This document shows positions 49,006-62,727 of a DNA stretch of 64,000 bases, piece after piece. Below the pieces are notes generated by a model that was given only the letters and a program-made list of their open reading frames with translations, searched no databases and was not told the origin of the DNA. This stretch comes from Terripilifer ovatus (GTDB taxonomy: Bacteria; Pseudomonadota; Alphaproteobacteria; Rhizobiales; Beijerinckiaceae): positions 248,001 to 312,000 of the forward strand of contig JARHVB010000008.1 in NCBI GenBank assembly GCA_029222685.1, in the 5' to 3' direction. The stretch's first letter is position 1, and each line of letters begins with the position of its first letter. Made by a program: the position numbers and the translations under genes.

Positions 49006-50079
49006 ATGAGGAAGCGGCGGGCGACCTTGAAGGATGTGGCCGAGTTGGTGGGCGTTCATGTCTCCACGGTTTCGCGCGCGCTCAATCCGGAAACGCGACA
49101 CCTGATTACCGCGAGCATCGCCCAGAAGATCGCTGCCGCCAGTCGCGCGCTCGATTATCGTCCCAATAGCGCCGCCTACAGCCTGCGCACCAACCGCACC
49201 CGAATCATCGGTGTCGTCGTACCCGACATCACCAATTCGATTTTCCCTCCAATCATTCGGGGCGTCGAAGATGCACTGGCCGAGCACGGCTATGCGACAC
49301 TCGTCATCAACACGGATGGACGTACCGAGCGCGAAGCAACGGTCATCGAAGCGCTGGCCTCACGCGGTGTCGACGGTCTCGTCGTCGCCAGCGTCGAGCG
49401 GGACGACCACACGGTGCGTCAACTGGCAGCCTTCGGCACCGCCATCGTCACCGTCAATCGCCGCATCGACGACCTGTCGATATCCTCGGTCACCAATGAC
49501 GAAGAGGACGGCGTGCGAATGATGCTGACGCATCTTGCCTCGCTGGGCCACAAGAACATCGTCAGCCTTGCGGGCAGCCAGAATTTCTCGACCGGGCAGC
49601 GCCGGCAGACGGCCTTCCTGGATCACGCCGGGAAGGTCGGCATCAGCACCGATCCCTCGCTCACGGTCTTCTCGAACGGCTTCAACGAGAATGCCGGCGA
49701 GCGGTGCATGGAAGAAGTGCTGGCGCGACGCACGGATTTCACCGCCGTTCTGTGCGCCAACGACAGGCTCGCCATCGGGGCGATCGCTGCCCTGCGGCGC
49801 GGCGGGCTGTTGTGCCCCACGGACATTTCCGTCACCGGCTTCAACGATATGGCGATGGTCGATCGCATCGATCCGCCGCTGACGACCATCCGTATCCAGC
49901 AGCACCGCGTCGGCTATGCGGCTGCCGAACTGCTGTACGAACAGATGAGGGATCGCACGCGCACCCATGCGCCCCGGCATGTCATCATGCCGGTCGAGCT
50001 TGTCGTGCGCGGTTCGACGGCGCCTCCCCCGCGCACCAGCGCCGCGGCCGCTGGCCCGCGCGCAAGGGTCCGCGTTTGA
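49006..50079 (+). CDS. LacI-family transcriptional regulator
   Basis: A 357-residue repressor. The helix-turn-helix lies at residues 7-26 (TLKDVAELVGVHVSTVSRAL) with the hinge helix in SAAYSLRTNRTRIIGVVVPD. The sugar-binding-protein-like effector domain covers about 60-330, with FTAVLCANDRLAIGAIAALR and DISVTGFNDM as family features. A basic, Ala/Arg-rich tail follows. The ribosome site is GGAGAA. Matching operator palindromes on each side of the gene (48873 and 50111) suggest it controls itself, the M24 gene and the downstream binding-protein gene. Confidence 0.93.
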   Translation: MRKRRATLKDVAELVGVHVSTVSRALNPETRHLITASIAQKIAAASRALDYRPNSAAYSLRTNRTRIIGVVVPDITNSIFPPIIRGVEDALAEHGYATLVINTDGRTEREATVIEALASRGVDGLVVASVERDDHTVRQLAAFGTAIVTVNRRIDDLSISSVTNDEEDGVRMMLTHLASLGHKNIVSLAGSQNFSTGQRRQTAFLDHAGKVGISTDPSLTVFSNGFNENAGERCMEEVLARRTDFTAVLCANDRLAIGAIAALRRGGLLCPTDISVTGFNDMAMVDRIDPPLTTIRIQQHRVGYAAAELLYEQMRDRTRTHAPRHVIMPVELVVRGSTAPPPRTSAAAAGPRARVRV

Positions 50080-50125: not shown

Positions 50126-50225
50126 AGCCTCCCGTCTCTGGAAAGTTAACCGCCAGGAACTGCGGATCTTGAACCGGCGCGACCAGACGCCGGAAGCAAA
50201 GCCGCCAATGGGAGGAAACATCGAC

Positions 50226-51254
50226 ATGCGCCTGCACGCCCTCATTACCGCTGCCGCAATCGTCCTGTCGGGCACGGCATTTGCGCAGACGAAGGTCACC
50301 ATCGGCGGCACGGGATCGGCCACCGACGTCGGCCTTTGGGTCGCCGACAAAAAGGGCTATTTCCGCGACGAGAATATCCAGGTCGAATTCATCACCTTCG
50401 ACTCGGCCGTGCGCATGGTCACCTCATTGGCATCAAACAGCCTGGACGTAGGTGCAGGCGGCCACTCGGCTGGTCTCTTCAACGCCATCGGCCGCGGCAT
50501 CGACATCCGCATCGTTTCCGACAAGAGCCAGAATGTAACCGGCCGCGGCAGCCAGAAACTGATCGTCCGCAAGGACCTTGTCGACTCCGGCCGCTACAAA
50601 TCTCTGGCCGATCTGAAAGGCATGAAGATCGCGGTATCCGCGCCGGGCGGATCCGCTGCAACAGTCATCCTCAAATTCCTCGAAAAGGGCGGGTTGAAAC
50701 CCGACGACGTAGAGCAAGTCTCGCTGAGCTTCCCGCAAATGTCGGTCGCGCTGCAGAACAAGGCCGTGGATGCGGCGCTGCCGGCCGAGCCTTCGGTGAC
50801 GCAGGCTCTGCGCACGGGCGCTGCCGTCGCCGTGGCGAACGACTATGACGTCTACCCGATCCATCAGATTTCGGAGATTTTGTATTCCAGTAAATTCGCG
50901 ACGGCAAACCCGGATGTGGCGCGCCGCTTCATGCGCGCCTTCCTGCGCGGCGTGCGCTATCATAACGACAGTCTGAACAATAAAGGCGAGTTCACCGGCG
51001 CGCGCGGCGACGAGATCGTCTCCATCCTCACCGAATATGGCCCATACAAGGATGCCGCAATCTGGCGGTCGTTCATCTTCGCCTATTGCAATCCGGACGG
51101 CGCTTTGCACCTCCCAAGCCTCAAGGAAGACCTCACCATTTTCAAACAGCAGGGTCTCATCGAACAACCGAAGGTCGAAATCGACCAGATGGTGGACACA
51201 TCCTTCGTCGCTTGGGCCGTGAAGGAGTTGGGACCTTATAAAAAAGCGCCGTAA
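50226..51254 (+). CDS. NitT/TauT-type ABC substrate-binding protein, paralog 3
   Basis: A 342-residue periplasmic binding protein starting at the ATG 50226 with GGGAGGAAA upstream. The signal peptide is about residues 1-20 (to GTAFAQ). It opens KVTIGGTGSATDVGLWVADK with KGYFRDENIQVEFITF and the cleft motif LASNSLDVGAGGHSAGLFNA. The hinge is GMKIAVSAPGGSAATVILKF. It is more distant from the 14216 and 31957 proteins than these are from each other. The LacI-type operator upstream links it to the M24 gene, so its ligand may be the M24 substrate. No permease or ATPase gene is present. Confidence 0.9.
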   Translation: MRLHALITAAAIVLSGTAFAQTKVTIGGTGSATDVGLWVADKKGYFRDENIQVEFITFDSAVRMVTSLASNSLDVGAGGHSAGLFNAIGRGIDIRIVSDKSQNVTGRGSQKLIVRKDLVDSGRYKSLADLKGMKIAVSAPGGSAATVILKFLEKGGLKPDDVEQVSLSFPQMSVALQNKAVDAALPAEPSVTQALRTGAAVAVANDYDVYPIHQISEILYSSKFATANPDVARRFMRAFLRGVRYHNDSLNNKGEFTGARGDEIVSILTEYGPYKDAAIWRSFIFAYCNPDGALHLPSLKEDLTIFKQQGLIEQPKVEIDQMVDTSFVAWAVKELGPYKKAP

Positions 51255-51735: not shown

Positions 51736-53988
51736 CTATCCGAGCCCCAGTACCCGACGCGCCATCAACAGCCGCTGCACTTCAACAGTGCCGCCATAAA
51801 TGGTGACGCGCCGGTTCTGCAGATAGGTCAGACCGGGGAAGGATTTGTCGCCGTCGCCACTGGCAACAGCCAGCGCGGCCTCGCTGCCATAGGCCTCTGC
51901 GAGCAATTCGCACAGCTCCTGCTGCAATTCCGCCGAAACCAGTTTGGCGAAGGCAAAATCCGCATTCGCTTTGGTGCGACTCTCGGCGAACGAGACGATC
52001 TGCGAGAACACGGCGCAAAGCGCCACGTAGTCGATTTCGGCGCGGGCGAGACGGTCGCGAAAACTGTCGTCGTCCATGACACCGGTCGCGCGCGCGGCTC
52101 GCTTCACCTTGCCGAGCAGTTGCGCACATTTCTGCGGATTGGCGCCATTGAGCCGTTCTTTCTCGAGCAGTGCGGTCGCCACCCGCCAACCATCGTCGAT
52201 GGAGCCGACGACATTTGAGACGGGCACGCGCACATCGTCGAAAAATACTTCCGCGAATTCCTCATCGCCGGCGATAGTGCGGATCGGAAGGGGCTTGATG
52301 CCCGGCGTCTTCATGTCGATCAGAATGAAGGTGATGCCGGCCTGCTTCTTCACATCCGGATTGGTGCGAACCAGTGCAAACATCCAGTCAGCGTGATGCG
52401 CCCATGTGGTCCAGATCTTCTGGCCATTGATGACGAAGTCGTCGCCATCGCGCACGGCGCGCGTGCGCAGGCTGGCAAGATCGGAGCCGGAGCTAGGCTC
52501 GGAATAGCCCTGGCACCAGATCGTATCGCCGGACAGCATTCCCGGCAGATGCCGCGCCTTCTGCTCTGGCGTGCCGAACACCTGCAGGATGGGACCGAGA
52601 TGATAGATCGCCTGGCCTGAGATTTCCGGCGCGCCGGCCTTGCCAGCCTCGTCGTAGAGCACAATCTGCTCGCCGACCGTGGCGCCCATGCCGCCATAGT
52701 CCTTCGGCCAGTTGGGCGCGACCCAGCCGCGCGCGGCGAGCTTCCTGTGCCAGCCGCAGGCCTCCTCGAAACTCGGCCGGCTCGGCAGATGCCGCAGACG
52801 GTCGGGCAAATTGGCCTCGAACCAGTCGTGAACCTCCTGGCGGAACGCCGCCTCACGGGGGCTGTCCTCGCGGAATTTCACCTCTGTTGTCTCGCCTGCC
52901 CCGAACATGCGCGCCGCGACGATCTTGCGGTGCTCGCTCGCAGTGCCGTAGGCGGTGGAGAGCGCCATGCCGCGTTTGAGATGCAGGCCGATATCATGCT
53001 CGTCGGTGAAGCCGATGGCGCCGTGCAACTGGATCATGTCGCGCGTCACCGCGGTTGCCGCAGCACTCGCCTTCGCCTTGGCGCCCGACGTCATCAGCAC
53101 GGAGGCGGCGCCGCCGCCAAGCGCCAGGCGCGCGGCTTCGTTCACCAGCGAGCGCGTCAACGAAATCTGCACATGGGCATCCACCGCGCGGAACTGCAGC
53201 GCCTGAAACGCCCCGAGAGGCTTGCCGAACTGTTCGCGTGTCTTGAGATGGTTGAGGGTGATTTGCAGCGCCGCGTCCATCAGGCCGACGAGTTCGGCAG
53301 CAGCGGTCAGGCCAAGGAAGATACGTAGCTCAGCGGCAAGCGCGGCGGCACCGGACGACAGAATATGTGTCGCAGCAACGCCGCAATTCTCGAACGTCAG
53401 CGTGCCTGTGCTCATGCCATCGACGGTCCGGCTCGAGGCGACCTTCAGCCCGGCCGTCTCCGCACGCACGAAGGCCAGACCTTCCGTACCGTTGAGATCG
53501 TAGCCGACAATGAAGGCATCGGCAGCGGCGGCGGCAAAGACGCCGCCGCGCACGCCATCCAACACGATGCCGGATGAGGCGCCCGCATGCGCCTTGACGC
53601 TGGCGCTCGCGGTGCTGGCAAGCGCCGGAACGAACAGCCTGCGGCCCTCCACCGCCTCGGCGAGTTCAGCGACATCGACGGCGCCTGAAAAAGCTGCCGC
53701 GCCTTTGAGCCCCACTATCAGCGAGACATAGGGGATGGAGGCAAGATGCCTGCCAAATTCCTCGGCGACGACGCAGGCTTCCACAAGGCCCAGGCCGCCG
53801 CCGCCCTTTTCCTCAGGCACGAGAATCGACAGCCAACCATCGCCGCCGGTGTGCGCAAGGGCTTCATCATCGCGGCCCGCCGCGCGCTCGCGCAGCCTGC
53901 GAAGTCGCGCTGCCCCAAACACCTGCGCTGCAAACCGCCCGGCGCCTTCGCGGATGGCCTTGATGTCATCTTCATTCGTTCCGGACAT
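51736..53988 (-). CDS. Tandem fusion of two acyl-CoA dehydrogenases
   Basis: A 750-residue flavoprotein made of two consecutive acyl-CoA dehydrogenase modules. Module 1 (about 1-365) has the C-terminal helical part GLMDAALQITLNHLKTREQF and QLHGAIGFTDEHDIGLHLKR but a degenerate N-terminal part. Module 2 (about 370-750) has a full FAD site: IWCQGYSEPSSGSDLASLRT and IKPLPIRTIAGDEEFAEVFF, ending TIYGGTVEVQRLLMARRVLG. The usual catalytic YEGT glutamate reads YGGT. Related heteromeric dehydrogenases act on steroid or bulky acyl-CoAs. The start is the ATG at 53986-53988 behind GGGGAAG; 73 upstream in-frame codons are not used. Confidence 0.9.
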   Translation of the reverse strand: MSGTNEDDIKAIREGAGRFAAQVFGAARLRRLRERAAGRDDEALAHTGGDGWLSILVPEEKGGGGLGLVEACVVAEEFGRHLASIPYVSLIVGLKGAAAFSGAVDVAELAEAVEGRRLFVPALASTASASVKAHAGASSGIVLDGVRGGVFAAAAADAFIVGYDLNGTEGLAFVRAETAGLKVASSRTVDGMSTGTLTFENCGVAATHILSSGAAALAAELRIFLGLTAAAELVGLMDAALQITLNHLKTREQFGKPLGAFQALQFRAVDAHVQISLTRSLVNEAARLALGGGAASVLMTSGAKAKASAAATAVTRDMIQLHGAIGFTDEHDIGLHLKRGMALSTAYGTASEHRKIVAARMFGAGETTEVKFREDSPREAAFRQEVHDWFEANLPDRLRHLPSRPSFEEACGWHRKLAARGWVAPNWPKDYGGMGATVGEQIVLYDEAGKAGAPEISGQAIYHLGPILQVFGTPEQKARHLPGMLSGDTIWCQGYSEPSSGSDLASLRTRAVRDGDDFVINGQKIWTTWAHHADWMFALVRTNPDVKKQAGITFILIDMKTPGIKPLPIRTIAGDEEFAEVFFDDVRVPVSNVVGSIDDGWRVATALLEKERLNGANPQKCAQLLGKVKRAARATGVMDDDSFRDRLARAEIDYVALCAVFSQIVSFAESRTKANADFAFAKLVSAELQQELCELLAEAYGSEAALAVASGDGDKSFPGLTYLQNRRVTIYGGTVEVQRLLMARRVLGLG

Positions 53989-54170
53989 TTCTTCCCCGCC
54001 GTTCTGCAATCCAGCGGCCTGATAGCACAAGCTTCCGCGCACTGCGATGGCGCGTGCTGTATCGCATTGCGGCGCAACTGGACCAGATCGCGGCCACGCG
54101 TCATAATCGCACCACGGGCCGCAATTTGCGAAATATGGCCATGAAGGAAGTCGACCAGCGGAGGAAATGC

Positions 54171-55121
54171 GTGAAGAAAATCGCCCTCGAGGAACATTGT
54201 ATGACACCGGGCCTCGCCAGCTATTGGGAACCGACGATGGCGGACGTGCCGCCGGAAATTTACCAGCGTATCCGCACGCGGCTGCACGACTATTCGGAAA
54301 TGCGCCTGCGGGAGATGGATGAAGCAGGTATCGAAAAGGCGATCCTCTCGGCAGCGGGCCCCGGCGTACAGGTCGAGCCGGACACGCGCACCGCGCTGAA
54401 GACCGCCGCTGAGGCCAACGACTATCTTGCCGGCCAGATCGCGCCCAACAGCAAGCGCCTCTACGGCTTCGCCCATATCGCCTTGCAGGATCCCGCCGAA
54501 GCGGCGAAGGAACTCGAACGCTGCGTCAAGCAACTCGGCTTCAAGGGCGCGATGATCAACGGCCACAGCAACGGCCATTATCTCGACGAGCGGCAGTTCG
54601 ATCCGTTCTGGGCCAAGGCCGAGGAACTGCAGGTGCCGATCTATCTGCACCCCGCTGACCCGCCGGTTCAGTACAATTCGTTCGGGAACTACGATTCGCT
54701 GCGGCGCGCCACCTGGGGCTGGACGGTGGAAACCGGCACGCATGTGCTGCGCATGGTCTTCGGCGGCGTCTTCGACCGGTTTCCCAAGGCGACGCTGGCG
54801 GTCGGCCACCTCGGCGAGACCCTGCCGTTCCTGCTCTGGCGTCTCGACAGCCGCGCCAAGCTCTATGGCGTGAAACTCAAGCGCGAGCCTTCCGACTACA
54901 TTCGCGAGAATATCGTGGTGACGATCTCGGGCATGTATTCGGCCGAGCCGTTCAACTGTGCCATTGCCGCGCTTGGCCAGGACCGGGTGATGTTCTCGGC
55001 CGATTACCCCTTCGAGCCCTGGGTCGTCGCCGGCAATTTCATGGATGATGTGAAAGTCGACGAGAAAGTCCGCGCCGATGTGGCGTGGAACAACGCGGCA
55101 AAACTGTTCGACGTCGGTTAA
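54171..55121 (+). CDS. Amidohydrolase-2 family protein, gamma-resorcylate decarboxylase-like
   Basis: A 316-residue TIM-barrel metalloenzyme of the ACMSD/LigW group of nonoxidative aromatic acid decarboxylases and hydrolases. The GTG at 54171, behind GGAGG, gives MKKIALEEHC, the family N terminus. Metal-site residues are visible: Glu7 and His9, His160 (IYLHPADPP), His213 (VGHLGE) and Asp278 (FSADYPFE). The PWxxE-like region FGGVFDRFPKATLAVGH is also present. It is divergent from the acyl-CoA dehydrogenase fusion and converges on ligJ. Likely a decarboxylase of a hydroxylated benzoate; substrate not certain. Confidence 0.88.
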   Translation: MKKIALEEHCMTPGLASYWEPTMADVPPEIYQRIRTRLHDYSEMRLREMDEAGIEKAILSAAGPGVQVEPDTRTALKTAAEANDYLAGQIAPNSKRLYGFAHIALQDPAEAAKELERCVKQLGFKGAMINGHSNGHYLDERQFDPFWAKAEELQVPIYLHPADPPVQYNSFGNYDSLRRATWGWTVETGTHVLRMVFGGVFDRFPKATLAVGHLGETLPFLLWRLDSRAKLYGVKLKREPSDYIRENIVVTISGMYSAEPFNCAIAALGQDRVMFSADYPFEPWVVAGNFMDDVKVDEKVRADVAWNNAAKLFDVG

Positions 55122-55278: not shown

Positions 55279-56274
55279 TCAAATCCTGAAGAACGACTTC
55301 GCATTGTCCTCGAAGATCATCTTCTTGTCGCCGTCACTGAGCCAATCGAAGCTCTTGATGACCGGCACGATGTCATCGAACGTCTTGCCCGTCTTCGGGT
55401 TCAGCGATGAGCCGACACCAGGGCATTCGGCGCCATACATGCAGCGATCGGCGCCGACGGTTTCGATCAGCAGCCGCAGGCCGGCTTCCGAATAAAGAAC
55501 AGTGTCATAGTAGAGGTTGCGCATCGCCTCGATGAAATCGACCCCACGCCGCGAAGCGCCCGACTGGAAACGCCCGATCTGGTAGGGAATGGCGCCGCCG
55601 CCGTGCGAGCAGACGATCTTCAGCTTCGGAAAATCCTTGAACACCGTTGAATTGGCGAGGCCGAAAACCGCGATCGATTCCTCGTTGATGAAGTGCAGCG
55701 TATAGGGCGTGCGCTCCGACTTCGATCCGGTGGCATGGATATGCGCCGCCACATCGAGCTGGCACAGTTTTTCATACAGCGGATACCAGTAGCGGTCGCC
55801 GAGCGCGGGCGCTTCTTCGCCGCCGTTTTCATAAGGATCGGGGTTGAGCAGACAGCCCTTGAACCCGAGCTTGGTGACGCAGCGCTCCAGTTCCGGCAGG
55901 GCGGCTGTGATCGGCTCGCCCGCCGCCTGCGGCAGGCCGCACATGCCGAAGAACTTGTCGGGGAAGAGTTGCACCGAGCGGGCGATAATATTGTTGGTTT
56001 CCTCGGTGAACCAGTGCACCAGACGCGACGGCTTGACGCTATGCATCATCTGGAACGGCCGCGGCGAAATGAGCTGTTTGTCGATGCCAAGCCGGTCCAT
56101 CATCGGAATATGCGCGACCGGACCCATTTCCTTGCGGAAATACGATTCCTTGATCTCCTCGTCGCTGACTTCGGGCATTTTGCGCCCGTGTTCGCCGCGG
56201 TGCGACATGATCGAGGCTTTATAGACCCACAACGCCGCCGGCGCGCTGACATGGGCGTGGCAATCGATAATCAT
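55279..56274 (-). CDS. ligJ: 4-oxalomesaconate hydratase
   Basis: A 331-residue amidohydrolase-fold hydratase that converts 4-oxalomesaconate to 4-carboxy-4-hydroxy-2-oxoadipate in the protocatechuate 4,5-cleavage and gallate pathways. It begins MIIDCHAHVSAPAALWVYKA and matches LigJ blocks throughout: DKQLISPRPFQMMHSVKPSR, GFKGCLLNPDPYENGGEEAP, GDRYWYPLYEKLCQLDVAAH, CSHGGGAIPYQIGRF and MYGAECPGVGSSLNPKTGK. Metal ligands include His6 and His8 of the N-terminal HxH. No ligAB, ligC, ligI or ligK gene is in the window, so the rest of the pathway must be elsewhere. Confidence 0.9.
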   Translation of the reverse strand: MIIDCHAHVSAPAALWVYKASIMSHRGEHGRKMPEVSDEEIKESYFRKEMGPVAHIPMMDRLGIDKQLISPRPFQMMHSVKPSRLVHWFTEETNNIIARSVQLFPDKFFGMCGLPQAAGEPITAALPELERCVTKLGFKGCLLNPDPYENGGEEAPALGDRYWYPLYEKLCQLDVAAHIHATGSKSERTPYTLHFINEESIAVFGLANSTVFKDFPKLKIVCSHGGGAIPYQIGRFQSGASRRGVDFIEAMRNLYYDTVLYSEAGLRLLIETVGADRCMYGAECPGVGSSLNPKTGKTFDDIVPVIKSFDWLSDGDKKMIFEDNAKSFFRI

Positions 56275-56410: not shown

Positions 56411-57202
56411 TCAGGGCCTGACGCCCGGCGCTTCCATCGTCATGCCGCGCGCACGCCACATCAGATAGAGCTCCAGATTGACAAATTCCTGGTCGCCGTA
56501 AGCATAGGGCTCGGCGCGCATGCCGATCATGCAATTGCGCAACCGCCGCTGCAGCGAACCGACCGTCTGCCATTCCAGCCGATAGAGCGGATAGGCAGTC
56601 GGGTGGGCCTGCGGCAGCAGCGCGCTGCCGAGCTTTTGACCCCAGTTATCCGTGTGGCACTGGGCACACGACAGGTTGAGCTGGCCAACCCGTTCGCTAT
56701 AGAGCTTCTCCCCCGCCTCGCGGAACGGCCTCGTGCGGCTGTCGTCCTTCGCCTCGATGGGCATGCCTTTCGACTGCCGCGCCAGATAGGCCGTCAACGC
56801 CAGAAGATCGCGGCTCTCATAGGCCAGTGGCGAGGCCTTCTGCTGCTCCGTGCGGCAGAGATTGATGCGCTGCTCGAGATTGATGACTTTGGATGACGTC
56901 TCGTCGAAAGCAGGATAACTCGCGGCAACGCCCTTCATGCTCGTTGCTGCGTCCCGGTGACACGATGAACACGACTTGTTAGCGGTGCCGGCCGGCTTGC
57001 TCCACAACGTTTCTCCCTCGAGCACCCACAGCATCGCCGGATTCGACGTGTCGTCGTTCTGCATGTCCTGGGTTTGCCGGCTCATGAATTCGGAACCGGA
57101 TTTGCGAGCCGCCAGGGGAATTTCGTCTCCGCTTGCAAACGGACCGGCCAGCAGAACGGCCATGCAGGCCATGATCATACGAAGCCGGCGGGGCCGCATC
57201 AT
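56411..57202 (-). CDS. soxA: SoxA, diheme cytochrome c subunit of SoxXA
   Basis: SoxA with SoxX forms the periplasmic cytochrome that couples a sulfur substrate to the SoxY cysteine. The 263-residue protein has a signal peptide (to about residue 25), heme motif 1 CSSCH (78-82), heme motif 2 CAQCH (179-183) and the active-site heme-ligand cysteine Cys224 in RNCMIGMRAEPY. Family blocks SYPAFDETSSKVINLEQRIN and WQTVGSLQRRLRNCM are clear. The ATG at 57200-57202 overlaps the soxZ stop. It is the last gene of the operon, after soxE-F-X-Y-Z. It has two heme motifs, as in the diheme SoxA group. Confidence 0.95.
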   Translation of the reverse strand: MMRPRRLRMIMACMAVLLAGPFASGDEIPLAARKSGSEFMSRQTQDMQNDDTSNPAMLWVLEGETLWSKPAGTANKSCSSCHRDAATSMKGVAASYPAFDETSSKVINLEQRINLCRTEQQKASPLAYESRDLLALTAYLARQSKGMPIEAKDDSRTRPFREAGEKLYSERVGQLNLSCAQCHTDNWGQKLGSALLPQAHPTAYPLYRLEWQTVGSLQRRLRNCMIGMRAEPYAYGDQEFVNLELYLMWRARGMTMEAPGVRP

Positions 57203-57519
57203 TCGACGGTGATCTGCTTGGTCTCGACCGCTTCGAAGCCATTGTCGCCACGCCAGGCGAGGACGATCTCGCCGCTGTCCGTCGCCCGTGTCGAGAAGGA
57301 GATGAATGGATTGGCGGCAATGGCCGGCGAATACTTCGCCTTGAAGACCTCTTCGCCATTGTAGGTGCAGGTGAACGTCTGAATGATATCGCGCTGAATA
57401 ATCTTGCCGTTCGTACCAACGCGAAAGCCCGATTCCATCGGATGCGAGATCAACGCCTTGATCTCGATAATATCGCCGCGCCTTGCATTGGCGGGAACGT
57501 TGACGAGGGCGCGCGCCAT
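57199..57519 (-). CDS. soxZ: SoxZ, sulfur carrier complex subunit
   Basis: SoxZ is the partner of SoxY in the periplasmic carrier. The 106-residue product starts MARALVNVPANARRGDIIEI and has the family segments ALISHPMESGFRVGTNGKII, FTCTYNGEEVFKAKYSPAIA and FSTRATDSGEIVLAWRGDNG. No signal peptide is present; like other SoxZ it should be exported with SoxY. The ATG at 57517-57519 overlaps the soxY stop by one base; a GTG one codon upstream is possible. Its stop overlaps the soxA start. Confidence 0.94.
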   Translation of the reverse strand: MARALVNVPANARRGDIIEIKALISHPMESGFRVGTNGKIIQRDIIQTFTCTYNGEEVFKAKYSPAIAANPFISFSTRATDSGEIVLAWRGDNGFEAVETKQITVE

Positions 57520-58010
57520 CACAGAATATCCTCAAGACAGGCAGCTAAAGTCACGATAACATCCGCATTGTCGAACCAGAACGACCCGTCGTTCATCTCG
57601 GCGACCGCGGTAATCTTCTGGCTGTCGGCAAGCTTGATGCGCGTGGCGAAACTCGCCCTTCCGCAACGGGGGCCCATGGTGCAGGTGATCACATCCGGCT
57701 GCGGATTCTTTTCGTTCACAACATGGATCACCCTGACGTAATTGTCATCGGTCATTGGGCTGTCAACCGAAACGGTCATCGGCACTGTATTGCCATTGTC
57801 GACCAGCGGCGGCAGATCGAGCGTAACCTTGCCCTTGGTCATGGGCTTGCCGCCAGTGATCTCATCGACGAGTTGCCGCATCATATCGGGCGTCGCCCGT
57901 GCCCTCTGCGCGCCGGCAGCGCCAAGCACCAGACCTAGGCCCAACTGCCCCGTCCGCAAAATGAAGATCCGCCGCGTCGGTTCGAGCATTGTTTCAGCAA
58001 CCCGTTTCAT
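57519..58010 (-). CDS. soxY: SoxY, sulfur-carrying subunit with non-canonical C terminus
   Basis: SoxY carries sulfur intermediates on a C-terminal cysteine. The 163-residue protein has a Tat-like signal (TRRIFILRTGQLGLGLVLGA, cleavage near ARA) and the SoxY fold, with PMTVSVDSPMTDDNYVRVIH and FATRIKLADSQKITAVAEMN. Normal SoxY ends in GGCGG. Here the aligned end reads VTLAACLEDIL, so Cys158 is kept but the flanking glycines are Ala-Ala and five residues follow it. Two further cysteines (110 and 116) are unusual. The start overlaps the soxX stop (ATGA). Confidence 0.9.
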   Translation of the reverse strand: MKRVAETMLEPTRRIFILRTGQLGLGLVLGAAGAQRARATPDMMRQLVDEITGGKPMTKGKVTLDLPPLVDNGNTVPMTVSVDSPMTDDNYVRVIHVVNEKNPQPDVITCTMGPRCGRASFATRIKLADSQKITAVAEMNDGSFWFDNADVIVTLAACLEDIL

Positions 58011-58492
58011 CGCAACGTCATCAGAAAGGCGATGACATCCTCGATCTGATCGGCATTCAGGATCGGCTTGCCGGCAAAACCCGGAGCTACCCGCGTCAAG
58101 CCGTCGGTACGATAATAGGATGGCATGATCGTGTCCGGATGCAAACGTCGCCCGTCGGCAATCCGCAGCCGCAACTGGCTTTCGTTGAGCCGCACCCCTG
58201 CCCCGGCAAGGCTCGGCGCCAAAGTGCCTTGGAATCGCTCCTCCGGGAATGGCCCCGAATGGCAGAGCAGACAAAGGCCCGTCTGGCGGTTGACGACGAT
58301 GGCGCGTCCCCGCGCTGCATCGCCAGGGGATCCGCTTAAAGATTTCGCGATGCCGCCGTCCTCGACCACGAATTCTCCCGGCATTTGTTGCGCCATTGCC
58401 GCTGTCGCATTTGCTGCGGCAAATAGAAACCAGGCCAGGCAGTGCAAGCCTCTAGCCAAAGACTTCAGCCGTGATCGTATTGAACCAGCCAT
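58007..58492 (-). CDS. soxX: SoxX, monoheme cytochrome c subunit of SoxXA
   Basis: A 161-residue periplasmic cytochrome. The signal peptide runs to about residue 34 (NATAAMAQQ). The heme motif is CLLCH at 74-78, and the axial Met123 lies in DTIMPSYYRTDGLTRV, a SoxX signature. The chosen ATG (58490-58492) lies 41 bp inside the end of soxF, which shows tight packing; no later Met gives a signal peptide of normal length. The soxX stop overlaps the soxY start. Confidence 0.93.
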   Translation of the reverse strand: MAGSIRSRLKSLARGLHCLAWFLFAAANATAAMAQQMPGEFVVEDGGIAKSLSGSPGDAARGRAIVVNRQTGLCLLCHSGPFPEERFQGTLAPSLAGAGVRLNESQLRLRIADGRRLHPDTIMPSYYRTDGLTRVAPGFAGKPILNADQIEDVIAFLMTLR

Positions 58493-59735
58493 CGGCAAGA
58501 CGGGCTTCCTGGGCACGGAAATCCGCCGGCGCATCAAGCGGGCTGGTGCCGCCGGCACCATCGATGTCGGCCAGCAATCCGTTCGTCGGCTTGTAGACGC
58601 CGGCGACGGTGATCCCATAGTCGGGCGCTACGACGCTGTAACAGGTGTTGATCAGCCGCGGCTCCGCCGGCTTGCCATTGGCGAGCATGGTGACGACGGC
58701 GGCGGCGCAGACTTTCGCCTGGGCATTGGCGGAGAATGCCGACTTCGGCATGGCGCCTGCAATCGAGGCATCGCCGACCACGTGAATGCCCGGACGCAGC
58801 TTCGATTCAAACGTCACCGGATCGATCGGGCACCAGCCGCTGCGGTCGGCAACACCCGCCAGTTCAGCGATATGCCCTGCCTTCTGCGGCGGGATCACGT
58901 TGGCCACCGCCGCCTTGTAGGTGGAAAAATCCGTCGTCAATGTCATCGCCGCCGGATCGACGGAGGTCACCTTGCCGCCGGTCGACAGCGAAACCCACTC
59001 CACCATGTCGCTGTAAAGCGCCTTCCAGACGTTCTGGAACAGGCGCTGTTTGGAGAACACATCCTTGGCATCGAGGATAATGAGCTTGGATTTCGGCTTT
59101 TTGGTTTTGAGATAGTAGGCGATGAGGCTGGCGCGCTCGTAAGGTCCGGGCGGACAGCGGAATGGATTGGCCGGCGACGAGATGACGACCACACCGCCGT
59201 CGTCCATCGCCTCGAGCTGACGCCGCAGCAGCAGGGTCTGCTCACCAGCCTTCCATGCATGCGGCATGATCGCGGCCGCCGCCTCGTTATAGCCAGGCAG
59301 CCCGTCCCAGCGGATGTCGACGCCGGGCGAAAGCACCAGCCGGTCGTAAGTCAACGTCGCGCCGTCGGCGAGCGTCACGCGCCTGGCGTCGGCATCGACG
59401 CCCGTTGCGGCGGTAAAGGCAATCTCGACGCCTGTTTTGCCGAGATTGTCGTAACCGAACTCCTGCTGCTTCAGATCGCGCAGGCCGGCGATGACGAGAT
59501 TGCTGAACGGACAGGCCGTGAATGTCCGGTTCGCCTCCACCAGCACGACGGAAAGCGCAGGATTGAAACGTTTGAGCATGCGCGCGCAGGTGGCGCCGCC
59601 AAAGCCGCCGCCGATAACGACCACGCGGCCGGCCGCACCCTGCGCAAGCGCCGGACGGGAGAGCGAGGCCATGGATAGGCTGGCCGCCGCCGTTCCGATG
59701 AATTTACGTCTGTCGAGCCTGACGGTCTTGCTCAT
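58452..59735 (-). CDS. soxF: SoxF, sulfide dehydrogenase flavoprotein (FccB-like)
   Basis: The flavoprotein subunit of flavocytochrome c sulfide dehydrogenase, which oxidises sulfide or sulfane sulfur in the periplasm. A Tat signal DRRKFIGTAAASLSM lies at residues 8-22. The FAD motif is VVVIGGGFGGATCARML, and redox-active cysteines are expected in FTACPFSNLVIAG and in RLINTCYSVVAPDYG. FRCPPGPYERASLIAYYLK and GDASIAGAMPKSAFSANAQA are family-specific. Length is 427 residues. It starts 5 bp after soxE. Confidence 0.94.
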   Translation of the reverse strand: MSKTVRLDRRKFIGTAAASLSMASLSRPALAQGAAGRVVVIGGGFGGATCARMLKRFNPALSVVLVEANRTFTACPFSNLVIAGLRDLKQQEFGYDNLGKTGVEIAFTAATGVDADARRVTLADGATLTYDRLVLSPGVDIRWDGLPGYNEAAAAIMPHAWKAGEQTLLLRRQLEAMDDGGVVVISSPANPFRCPPGPYERASLIAYYLKTKKPKSKLIILDAKDVFSKQRLFQNVWKALYSDMVEWVSLSTGGKVTSVDPAAMTLTTDFSTYKAAVANVIPPQKAGHIAELAGVADRSGWCPIDPVTFESKLRPGIHVVGDASIAGAMPKSAFSANAQAKVCAAAVVTMLANGKPAEPRLINTCYSVVAPDYGITVAGVYKPTNGLLADIDGAGGTSPLDAPADFRAQEARLADGWFNTITAEVFG

Positions 59736-59740
59736 CCGGC

Positions 59741-60040
59741 TTAATCCTTCCGCGCTGCATACCACGACGCAATGGCGCGGATTTCATCGTCCGTGAAACC
59801 TTTCGCCACCCGGTCCATCACCGTCGCCGGCGTTTTGCCGTTCTTGAAGGCAAGCAGCGAGGCGACAAGATCGTCCGCATTGCGGCCGACGATCCCGGGC
59901 GCCGGCGTTTGTACGTTCGCGCTTGCCGGATGACACCCCGAACAGGACAGGGCACCAGCCGGTGCGTCGAGGCCTTCCGCCCAAGCGCCGTGTCCGCAGG
60001 CGCACATCAGGATCGCGGCGAGGAGGAATCGAAGAGGCAT
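59741..60040 (-). CDS. soxE: SoxE, cytochrome c subunit of sulfide dehydrogenase
   Basis: A 99-residue periplasmic c-type cytochrome. The start ATG at 60038-60040 gives a signal peptide MPLRFLLAAILMCACGHGAW with cleavage near AEG. The heme motif is CSGCH (33-37) and the axial Met is probably in KTPATVMDRVAKGFTDDEIR. It pairs with SoxF directly downstream. It is placed 51 bp after the molybdenum hydroxylase large subunit, so it could also accept electrons from that enzyme; this is inference. Confidence 0.9.
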   Translation of the reverse strand: MPLRFLLAAILMCACGHGAWAEGLDAPAGALSCSGCHPASANVQTPAPGIVGRNADDLVASLLAFKNGKTPATVMDRVAKGFTDDEIRAIASWYAARKD

Positions 60041-60091
60041 TACTTTTCCCAACAAAAAGGAAGGGCGGCCCGTGGACCGCCCTGACAATGC

Positions 60092-62266
60092 CTACACAGA
60101 TTTGAGACTGTGATTCATCAACGGCAGATCGCGAATGCGCTTGCCGGTGGCAGCGAAGATCGCATTCAGCACCGCCGGGGCCGCAACCGCGATCGTCGGT
60201 TCGCCGACGCCACCCCAGAAGCCGCCCGACGGCATGATGATGCATTCGACTTTCGGCATTTCGTCGATGCGCATCATGTTGTAGCTGTCGAAATTCGTCT
60301 GTTCGATCGCGCCGTCCTTGACGGTGCATTCGCCGTACAGCATCGCCGTCAGGCCGTAGACGAAGGAGCCTGCGATCTGCCGTTCGATCTGCGCCGGGTT
60401 GACGGCATAGCCACAATCGGTGGCGCCGACGATGCGCAAAATCTTCAACTGCCCTTCCGGACTGACCGTCACATCAGCCACTGCCGCAACATAGCTGCCG
60501 AAGCCCATGATCTGCGCCACGCCCTGGAAGACGCCCTTCGGCGCCTTGCCGTAATTGGCTTTGGCGGCAGCCGCGTCGAGCACGGCGCGATGTTTCGGCT
60601 TCAACATCTTGCGGCGGAACTCGAGGGGATCCTGCCCGGCTTCCTTGGCAAGCTCGTCCATGAAGGATTCCACATAGACGGCGTTGTGGTTGAGATTCAC
60701 GCCGCGCCAGAAGCCGGCAAGAATATGGGTGTTGCGCATCGCATGATCGATCAGCACGTTCGGAATGGTATAGCCGAAATTGCCTTCGGGCGCGCTTGGT
60801 GTCAGGCCCTGGAATACGGCCGGATCCATGCCGTTCTGCAGCGCCTGCGGCAACAGCGACGCGAGGATCGACTGTCCTGAAATGCGCATATGCAATGCCG
60901 TCAGATTGCCCGCGGCATCGAAACCGCCGGTCATCTTGCATTGCGTCACCGGATGATAGGCGCAATGCGTCATATCTTCCTCGCGCGTCCAGATCAGCTT
61001 CACCGGTGTTCCCGGCATTTCCTTGGCGATTTTCACCGCCTGCGTCACATAGTCGGTGCGCGCGCGCCGGCCGAAGCCGCCGCCAAGATGCACCTTGTAG
61101 ACATCGCATTTGTCGACGGGCAGACCCGCTGCTTCCGCGACCGCCGCCAGCGCGCCTTCGCCGTTCTGCGTCGGACACCAGACCTCGCACTTGTCCGCCG
61201 TGTAGAGAGCCGTCGTGTTCATCGGCTCCATGGTGGCGTGATGCAGATACGGGAAGGAGTAGACCGCCTCATACTTCTTGGCCGCGCCTTGCAGAGCAGC
61301 CGGCGCATCGCCGGTCTTGTTGCCGACGAACGCCTGGTCGGCGGAAAGTCCTTCCTTCAGCATGTCGGCGATCGTGGCGCTCGACACTTTGGCATTCTCG
61401 CCCAGGTCCCAGGTCTTCGGCAGGGCGGCGAGCGCCGTCTTGGCGTTCCAGAACGTGTCTGCGACCACCGCGACGCTGCTGTCGCTGACGCGAACAACGG
61501 ATTTGACGCCGCGCATGGATTTGACCTTGTCGGCATCGAACGACGTCAGCTTGCCGCCGTTGACCGGACAATCATGAATGGCAGCGATGACCATTCCGGG
61601 CAGCTTGATGTCGATGCCATAAACCTGCTTGCCGGTGAGCTTGTCGACCGTGTCGAGGCGTTTCACCGGCTTGCCGATCAGCTTCCAGTCCTTTGGGTCT
61701 TTCAGCTTGACGTCCTTGGGCGGGTCGAGCTTGCCGGCGGCGCTCGCCACCTTGCCGAAGGTGGTCTTGCGGCGCGACCCCTTGTGCGTGATGACGCTGT
61801 TGGCCGCCGTGCATTCGCCCGCCGGAACCTTCCATTCGTTAGCCGCGGCCTGAATTAGCATTTCGCGGGCGATGGCGCCGCCCTTGCGGACGTATTCCTG
61901 CGACTGCCGGATGCTTTGGCTGCCGGTGGAATTGTAATTGCCCCACACGCGCTTGCGCGCGACATTGGTGCCGGGAGTGGGATATTCCCACGTCACCTTC
62001 GACCAGTCGCATTCCAGTTCTTCCGCCACCATCTGCGCCAGTCCGGTCAGCGACCCCTGGCCCATCTCCGAGCGGGCGATACGGATGACAACTGTGTCGT
62101 CAGGCTTGACCACGACCCAGGCATTCACCTCCGGCGTGGCATCCGCCGCCAAAGCATCGGGCATATAGTTGAAGCCGAGCGAGAAGCCGCCGGTTGCAGC
62201 AGCCGCGCCGACGAGAAACGAGCGTCGATCGAATTTTGGCAAGTCGAATTTCGGCATGTCGTTCAT
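60092..62266 (-). CDS. Xanthine dehydrogenase-family molybdopterin-binding subunit (IorB-like)
   Basis: A 724-residue large subunit of a molybdenum hydroxylase of the isoquinoline 1-oxidoreductase/aldehyde oxidase type. The start ATG at 62264-62266 gives a Tat-like signal FDRRSFLVGAAAATGGFSLG, so it is probably periplasmic. Molybdopterin-binding segments include IARSEMGQGSLTGLAQMVAE, VHLGGGFGRRARTDYVTQAV, GFWRGVNLNHNAVYVESFMD and VGATDCGYAVNPAQIERQIA. The active-site Glu689 lies in GGVGEPTIAVAAPAVLNAI. The partner 2Fe-2S subunit lies 11 bp upstream, and soxE follows 51 bp downstream. Substrate unknown. Confidence 0.92.
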   Translation of the reverse strand: MNDMPKFDLPKFDRRSFLVGAAAATGGFSLGFNYMPDALAADATPEVNAWVVVKPDDTVVIRIARSEMGQGSLTGLAQMVAEELECDWSKVTWEYPTPGTNVARKRVWGNYNSTGSQSIRQSQEYVRKGGAIAREMLIQAAANEWKVPAGECTAANSVITHKGSRRKTTFGKVASAAGKLDPPKDVKLKDPKDWKLIGKPVKRLDTVDKLTGKQVYGIDIKLPGMVIAAIHDCPVNGGKLTSFDADKVKSMRGVKSVVRVSDSSVAVVADTFWNAKTALAALPKTWDLGENAKVSSATIADMLKEGLSADQAFVGNKTGDAPAALQGAAKKYEAVYSFPYLHHATMEPMNTTALYTADKCEVWCPTQNGEGALAAVAEAAGLPVDKCDVYKVHLGGGFGRRARTDYVTQAVKIAKEMPGTPVKLIWTREEDMTHCAYHPVTQCKMTGGFDAAGNLTALHMRISGQSILASLLPQALQNGMDPAVFQGLTPSAPEGNFGYTIPNVLIDHAMRNTHILAGFWRGVNLNHNAVYVESFMDELAKEAGQDPLEFRRKMLKPKHRAVLDAAAAKANYGKAPKGVFQGVAQIMGFGSYVAAVADVTVSPEGQLKILRIVGATDCGYAVNPAQIERQIAGSFVYGLTAMLYGECTVKDGAIEQTNFDSYNMMRIDEMPKVECIIMPSGGFWGGVGEPTIAVAAPAVLNAIFAATGKRIRDLPLMNHSLKSV

Positions 62267-62277
62267 GGTCGCGCCCC

Positions 62278-62727
62278 TCAAGCTTTCGCGGCGGCGTGAA
62301 TCGCCTGCCGGATCTGTTGATAGGTGCCGCAGCGACAGATGTTGGTCAGCGCGGCATCGATGTCGGCGTCGGTCGGCTTCGGCCGGTCTTTCAGCAAGGC
62401 CGAGACGGCCATGATCATCCCGCTCTGGCAGTAACCGCATTGCGGAACTTCGTTGTCGAGCCAGGCCTTCTGCACTTTGGTCATGACGTTGTTGACGGCG
62501 AGACCTTCGATCGTGGTGATTTTCTTGCCGGAGACCATGTTGACCGGCACCGAGCACGAACGCGTAGCCACGCCATCGATATGCACCGTGCAGGCGCCGC
62601 ACTGGGCGATGCCGCAGCCGTATTTGGTTCCCGTGAGACCAAGCGAATCGCGCAACACCCACAATAACGGCGTGCGCGGATCGACATCGGCCTGATACGG
62701 CTTACCGTTAACGTTGAGAGACGCCAT
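62278..62727 (-). CDS. 2Fe-2S subunit of xanthine dehydrogenase-family enzyme (IorA-like)
   Basis: A 149-residue small subunit with two 2Fe-2S clusters. The plant-type cluster uses Cys38, 43, 46 and 58 ([24 protein letters not shown]). The second uses Cys96, 99, 130 and 132 ([17 protein letters not shown]). The start ATG at 62725-62727 has GGAAGGGAAGAAG upstream. It carries no signal peptide and would be exported with the large subunit through Tat. It is the first gene of the eight-gene unit ending with soxA. Confidence 0.94.

Follow-up and report, generated by a model that had tools for sequence, protein, structure and literature searches.

The subject of this report is a block of eight genes on the minus strand of a stretch of 64,000 nucleotides from the alphaproteobacterium Terripilifer ovatus (assembly GCA_029222685.1, contig JARHVB010000008.1, positions 248,001 to 312,000 of the forward strand), which is called the window in the following and in which the block occupies positions 56411-62727. 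The genes encode, in this order, the 2Fe-2S subunit of a molybdenum (Mo) hydroxylase, the Mo-hydroxylase large subunit (MoL), a small cytochrome c, a flavocytochrome-c-type flavoprotein, SoxX, SoxY, SoxZ and SoxA. The block is a conserved, undescribed variant of the Sox system that is built around the Mo hydroxylase: the link between the Mo enzyme and the Sox proteins is conserved, and an alteration in the carrier arm of SoxY goes with the Mo enzyme. A partnership of SoxYZ and MoL is well supported and we consider it very probable. An origin of the block by chance is excluded because its gene order recurs in many unrelated genomes.

An earlier note on this DNA, made from the sequence alone, had taken the SoxY of the window for an ordinary SoxY and overlooked its arm. 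The protein fails the model of true SoxY with 96.9 bits (cut-off 125) and passes the NCBIfam model TIGR04487, named 'SoxY-related AACIE arm protein', with 199.4 bits (cut-off 172), while its score of 60.1 bits with TIGR04557, the quinoprotein-associated SoxYZ-like carrier, is below the cut-off of 140. In the variant the carrier arm GGCGG is replaced by AAC(I/L)E and the carrier cysteine is retained. Predicted structures reached a mean predicted local distance difference test score (pLDDT) of 73.1 for MoL and of 80.7 for SoxY, with about 51 in the SoxY arm, so that the pose of the arm is not interpretable.

The earlier note had proposed to look for the same gene order in other genomes, and it recurs there. 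The relatives compared are the best-scoring entries of ranked lists, and many lower-scoring SoxY matches lie outside the sample. A scan of named contigs for SoxY yielded 15 loci, 14 of which carry the genes for the 2Fe-2S subunit and MoL beside sox genes; the remaining one (L024) lacks MoL, and the arm of its SoxY is GGCGG. The TIGR04487 cut-off was passed in 17 of 297 genomes of the own order, in 21 of 385 genomes of the own class and in 18 of 300 genomes of the order to which a Burkholderiaceae metagenome-assembled genome (MAG) belongs. Within the own order, MoL is present on the 20-kb stretch in all 17 passing genomes and at two loci just below the cut-off (L042, L043), and it is absent from the stretch of the GGCGG locus L066. 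The surveys of the class and of the Burkholderiales contributed 58 further loci, most of them viewed over 1.5 kb on each side only, and six loci (L189-L194) were chosen for a variant-like profile match. The same eight genes occur on plasmids of Methylobacterium sp. NMS14P and Neorhizobium galegae, and on the latter a frame change splits MoL, with the cytochrome spread over two frames as well.

A recount of all loci with SoxY tails other than GGCG (n = 95, with L100 excluded as the same place as L014) found MoL on the same stretch in 90, a cut by a contig end in two (L070, L073) and absence of MoL in three (L085, L095, L116). At loci with a GGCG tail MoL was present in 0 of 25; 20 of these form a control set, hand-picked from GGCGG-type or lower-scoring matches in the own order and viewed over 10-11 kb, and three were viewed over 1.5 kb on each side only. 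Moreover, 21 genomes were searched with a profile built from 15 MoL proteins. The genomes of L095 and L116 encode a MoL of the clade on another contig (1161 and 1149 bits), and in 17 genomes that had been viewed for their GGCGG SoxY, each by its best SoxY only, the best MoL-like match was 612.8 bits. The idea that ordinary neighbouring genes lie beside drifting Sox remnants could appeal to the missing SoxB and SoxCD and to the occurrence of lone MoL genes. It is refuted in practice by this recount and hardly credible, as gene order, the association of the tail with the enzyme and intact catalytic motifs are conserved across many genomes.

A quick tree of 61 MoL rows sets five outgroup Mo hydroxylases apart from the other 56 rows, which come from sox loci and lone relatives. 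Eight rows from Burkholderiales loci that contain SoxY and SoxZ without SoxX and SoxA (SoxYZ-only loci) branch first, and two more SoxYZ-only rows nest inside. When 48 main-clade and eight SoxYZ-only rows were compared with the five outgroup rows, E46, W50, R62, R104, E370, R511, N512 and W684 proved invariant or almost invariant in the sox-linked rows and occurred in none of the outgroup rows, and H438, N524 and N526 were fixed only in the 48 main rows. E370, N512 and W684 stand beside active-site motifs, and several of the clade residues lie few positions from Q367, R521 and E689. These residues suggest a special substrate, which argues against a role of SoxYZ, together with SoxXA and SoxF, in providing sulfur for the upkeep of the Mo sulfido ligand after export. 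Such a role would fit the equatorial sulfur ligand on Mo in the xanthine oxidase family (PMC2997495), the sulfane-carrying function of SoxYZ and the composition of the simplest loci, which consist of the 2Fe-2S subunit, MoL and SoxYZ alone. However, the own genome contains 26 stretches matching MoCoBD_1 and one SoxY, so exported relatives manage without, and maturation of the XdhC type exists: an annotated XdhC family gene is found beside a lone MoL (L169:9434-10357) and an XdhC-like protein, recognized by similarity, is encoded downstream of a full module (L059:7760-8800). We judge sulfido upkeep to be improbable.

The absence of SoxB and SoxC from the window, which the earlier note had described, extends to the whole genome. 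In the own assembly (G000; 7,197,898 bases, 99.43% complete) SoxB gave 0 candidates and the best match to the SoxC family reached 177.7 bits at a cut-off of 420; SoxD was not searched separately. This best match is SorA, and genes for the sulfite dehydrogenase subunits SorA (703.9 bits, cut-off 600) and SorB (122.2 bits, cut-off 93) are located on the contig of the operon about 72 kb away (L175:4085-5676 on own contig C78, outside the window), making SorAB a possible sink for sulfite. The genome contains, furthermore, a second SoxA-like protein on its contig C16, with 50.5 bits against a cut-off of 110. A complete soxBCD set elsewhere in the genome combined with a lack of Mo-sox conservation, which the earlier note had named as evidence against its proposal, was not found.

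SoxB was over the cut-off in 23 of 33 module genomes of one set and in 21 of 28 of another, that is in 44 of 61, and 17 of 61 lack it, which shows the module to be independent of SoxB in many genomes; if two non-module genomes are included, the first set amounts to 25 of 35. Besides several MAGs for which completeness is not stated, the genomes with the module and without SoxB include G000, G285, G247, G065 and G167, all at least 98% complete. SoxC was over the cut-off in 35 of 59 module genomes. The module thus often coexists with a complete Sox system and the absence of SoxB and SoxCD is not its defining trait, so that of the unit of Mo hydroxylase and partial Sox system put forward in the earlier note the conserved link (90 of 95) stands and the definition by missing genes does not. 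These counts also bear on the explanation that MoL stands in for SoxCD and converts SoxY-S-S- to SoxY-S-SO3- with oxygen from water, the sulfur leaving as sulfite for SorAB. The own genome, with SorAB and without SoxC over the cut-off, fits this, MoL and SoxC are both Mo enzymes that draw oxygen from water, and the operon encodes SoxXA, SoxYZ and a sulfide-oxidising flavoprotein together. Nevertheless, with SoxC in 35 of 59 module genomes the replacement cannot be a simple one, the family of MoL normally acts on carbon and the glutamate of the GEP motif is retained in MoL, and a release step that works without SoxB is not known. This explanation appears unlikely to us.

We tentatively propose, at a somewhat less than even chance for the statement as a whole, that the operon encodes a Sox-derived periplasmic oxidation module in which a SoxYZ whose arm is altered serves an exported Mo hydroxylase as its dedicated carrier in a thiol-substrate cycle. 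SoxXA would oxidatively couple the substrate, a thiol, to the cysteine of SoxY, and the altered arm would then offer the S-bound organic group to MoL in direct contact of SoxYZ with the enzyme. MoL would hydroxylate a carbon of the tethered group using oxygen from water, and the electrons would exit via the 2Fe-2S subunit and c-type cytochromes. The carbon part would be released with sulfane sulfur remaining on SoxY. The flavocytochrome, made up of SoxF and the cytochrome, or an ordinary Sox system where there is one might then remove this sulfur, or it might leave as sulfite for SorAB. Carbon hydroxylation is typical of the xanthine dehydrogenase family. The nearest solved chain to MoL is the large subunit of an aldehyde dehydrogenase (8gy3_C, 226.8 bits), an exported enzyme of a carbon-oxidising family. 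A thiol tethered on SoxY and oxidised at carbon by MoL is the simplest synthesis. The particular chemistry, an organic thiol held on SoxY and oxidised by MoL, is conceivable and clearly more doubtful than the partnership of the proteins. SoxA aligns to the dihaem SoxA 1h31 (1h31_A) with both haem sites kept and with Cys223 aligned to a Cys of 1h31, which makes a disulfide-type coupling to SoxY plausible.

The composition of the module varies. A SoxF-type flavocytochrome flavoprotein is encoded on at least 33 of 90 MoL stretches; since most of these are short, the true count may be higher. SoxX and SoxA are absent from the viewed stretch in 16 of 90 MoL loci, including two (L013, L191) that a contig end cuts short. 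Loci of the composition MoL-SoxY-SoxZ without SoxXA (L146-L156) have arms such as TACGG, AGCGL, SDCGL and AACLEELPA, and some of them adjoin genes for enolase-superfamily proteins. The SoxYZ-only loci are relevant for the possibility that SoxYZ is a carbon carrier, in which an aldehyde would form an adduct with the thiol of SoxY, MoL would oxidise this adduct to a thioester, and hydrolysis would follow. SoxXA would be unnecessary for loading at these loci, the nearest solved relative of MoL is an aldehyde dehydrogenase, and a SoxYZ-type carrier of TIGR04557 (PP_2677 of Pseudomonas putida) is likewise coupled to carbon-oxidising quinoprotein dehydrogenases (PMC12997753); that carrier differs in being a fused SoxYZ that works with an enzyme dependent on pyrroloquinoline quinone (PQQ) and not with a Mo enzyme. 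However, a carbon carrier leaves SoxXA and the sulfide-dehydrogenase flavoprotein of the full module without a role, and the neighbourhood of the module shows no conserved hydrolase dedicated to it. This possibility is quite unlikely in our view.

For the reading of SoxYZ as a dedicated thiol carrier of MoL, the distances between MoL proteins correlate with those of their partners, namely with SoxY (r 0.609, n = 60) no less closely than with the 2Fe-2S subunit of MoL itself (r 0.605, n = 59), and with SoxZ (r 0.562), SoxA (r 0.668), SoxX (r 0.546) and SoxF (r 0.603, n = 21), with 0 of 999 permutations as high for each partner; the correlation also reflects shared ancestry, which alone would give some, and this weighs against the reading as do the following observations. 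At 14 uncut loci, 11 of them viewed over 9-16 kb (L190 included), MoL, SoxY and SoxZ occur without SoxX and SoxA on the viewed stretch. SoxA was over the cut-off in all 13 searched genomes of SoxYZ-only loci, and we dropped this as proof of SoxXA loading: SoxA is over the cut-off in 149 of 300 genomes of the order of the SoxYZ-only loci generally and sits in other sox clusters in six of six cases viewed, leaving SoxXA loading unproven for the SoxYZ-only loci. Five plasmid stretches of Rhizobiaceae contain the 2Fe-2S and MoL genes and lack sox genes over about 7-10 kb, and four lone Rhizobiaceae MoL rows nest within the sox-linked clade; MoL may therefore act alone or in trans. The locus L203 (L085) carries a variant SoxY without a neighbouring MoL, and its genome is outside the 21 genomes of the MoL search. 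Finally, flank comparisons of module loci showed no conserved transporter, catabolic or substrate-naming gene; the flanks are lineage-specific only, with two-component genes and a cytochrome at some Rhizobiaceae-like loci, transporters, and enolase-superfamily proteins. The organic or organosulfur substrate that the earlier note had suggested is a candidate only. The lone MoL stretches (L047, L166-L169) have a c-type cytochrome upstream and, in several cases, two-component genes, and the lone MoL gene of L169 lies in two frames. As an observation on other sox clusters, genomes of the Burkholderiales order (L177-L180, L182) contain a different one whose SoxA is 28-30% identical where called, located beside a MoaC gene (confirmed for L177) and adjoined by short proteins with a putative TusA and rhodanese look; SoxB over the cut-off was not found in the genomes of L177-L180.

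Compared to known systems, the SoxX, SoxA and SoxZ of the window belong over cut-off to the families of the Paracoccus-type Sox system (soxXYZABCD) and the carrier cysteine of SoxY is kept, whereas the arm is AACLE and not GGCGG, an unrelated Mo enzyme stands in front, and SoxB and SoxCD are missing from the operon and, over cut-off, likewise from the genome. The SoxY of the window is a member of TIGR04487, a family that carries a name and, as far as the search results show, no function; the link to a Mo hydroxylase is an addition of the present analysis. MoL shares the 2Fe-2S and MoCoBD make-up, the motifs and the Tat-like leader with exported Mo hydroxylases of the aldehyde dehydrogenase / isoquinoline 1-oxidoreductase type (8gy3), and differs by belonging to the sox-linked clade (E370, N512, W684), by having no fused cytochrome domain and by its tie to SoxYZ. 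An incomplete Sox system with a flavocytochrome c flavoprotein was reported for SAR324, with a new mechanism suggested and no Mo enzyme described in the accessible portion of that report (PMC4782131). Sulfur hand-over by SoxYZ was described in Hyphomicrobium (PMC11582611). In the open-licence literature searched, there was no mention of the AACIE arm, TIGR04487 or the SoxY-related protein, and no published description of Sox joined with a Mo hydroxylase was among the open-licence matches listed.

The genes of the block are listed in Table 1. All eight were found closely packed on the minus strand as the earlier note had them, with the overlaps it had seen: 41 bases between SoxF and SoxX, given the SoxX start at the ATG at 58492, four bases (ATGA) between SoxX and SoxY, one base between SoxY and SoxZ if the start is ATG and four if it is GTG, and one base between SoxZ and SoxA. 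Gaps of 11, 51 and 5 bases separate the 2Fe-2S gene from MoL, MoL from the cytochrome and the cytochrome from SoxF, respectively. The assignment of the Mo enzyme to the xanthine dehydrogenase family with a Tat-like signal was borne out by its MoCoBD domains and by the N-terminus RRSFLVGAAAATGG, which resembles a Tat signal; MoCoBD_1, MoCoBD_2 and a two-cluster 2Fe-2S subunit are all present in the pair. The best score of MoL with the NCBIfam equivalogs for xanthine, aldehyde and CO dehydrogenase was 172 bits at a cut-off of 780. MoL contains the motifs PTQ(367), GGGFGRR(395), R521 and GEP(E689), and we take the Q, GGGFG, R and GE(P) motifs to be the catalytic residues. The haem, cysteine and Mo-site motifs of the operon are intact. 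The label soxE given to the small cytochrome c is weak: the protein has one haem-binding motif, and no Pfam or NCBIfam family matched at E 0.001; judged by its gene position, the protein is probably the cytochrome partner of SoxF. SoxF matches the solved structures 5n1t_A (491.8 bits) and 1fcd_A (422 bits).

Table 1. Genes of the Mo hydroxylase-Sox operon in the window, from the 2Fe-2S gene to soxA
Product	Position	Strand	Features
2Fe-2S subunit of Mo hydroxylase	62278..62727	-	149 aa, 8 Cys; Fer2_2 E 1.4e-27 and Fer2
MoL, Mo-cofactor large subunit, xanthine dehydrogenase family	60092..62266	-	724 aa; MoCoBD_1 and MoCoBD_2
Small monohaem cytochrome c	59741..60040	-	99 aa; single CxxCH at residue 33
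SoxF / flavocytochrome c sulfide dehydrogenase flavoprotein	58452..59735	-	427 aa; FCSD_central E 1.1e-49 and FCSD-flav_bind
SoxX, monohaem c-type cytochrome	58007..58492	-	TIGR04485 73.9 bits, cut-off 61
SoxY variant	57519..58010	-	arm end VTLAACLEDIL; TIGR04487 (scores in text)
SoxZ	57199..57519	-	TIGR04490 86.8 bits, cut-off 76
SoxA, dihaem	56411..57199	-	TIGR04484 241.9 bits, cut-off 110; two CxxCH, Cys223

Just downstream of soxA, two Amidohydro_2 proteins are encoded at window positions 54195-55118 (plus strand) and 55279-56274 (minus strand), 26% alike over 6316-7011 of L067. We rejected them as members of the conserved unit, as amido2 used as a query had no match in the relatives compared, its own genome apart. 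Farther away, positions 51739-53994 (minus strand) hold a single open frame with two acyl-CoA dehydrogenases end to end, PimD/PimC-like and below the cut-offs, and an NMT1-like periplasmic binding protein is encoded at 50169-51254 (plus strand) with a LacI-type regulator beside it at 49006-50079.

Surveys of Sox systems usually use SoxB as marker. A SoxY survey discarded sequences without the GGC motif (PMC11237559), by which carriers of the present type were left out there. The occurrence of the module in many bacteria, often without SoxB, points to undescribed sulfur handling outside the inner membrane. More specifically, and as a tentative suggestion, this may be an undescribed periplasmic pathway in which the Sox arm has been re-tooled to present thiol-bound organics to a Mo hydroxylase, with organosulfur compounds oxidised on a protein tether without SoxB. 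If true, some Sox systems annotated as 'partial or degenerate' would be intact systems that work with another enzyme and perhaps on another substrate, and TIGR04487, long without a named function, becomes directly testable once its partner is named.

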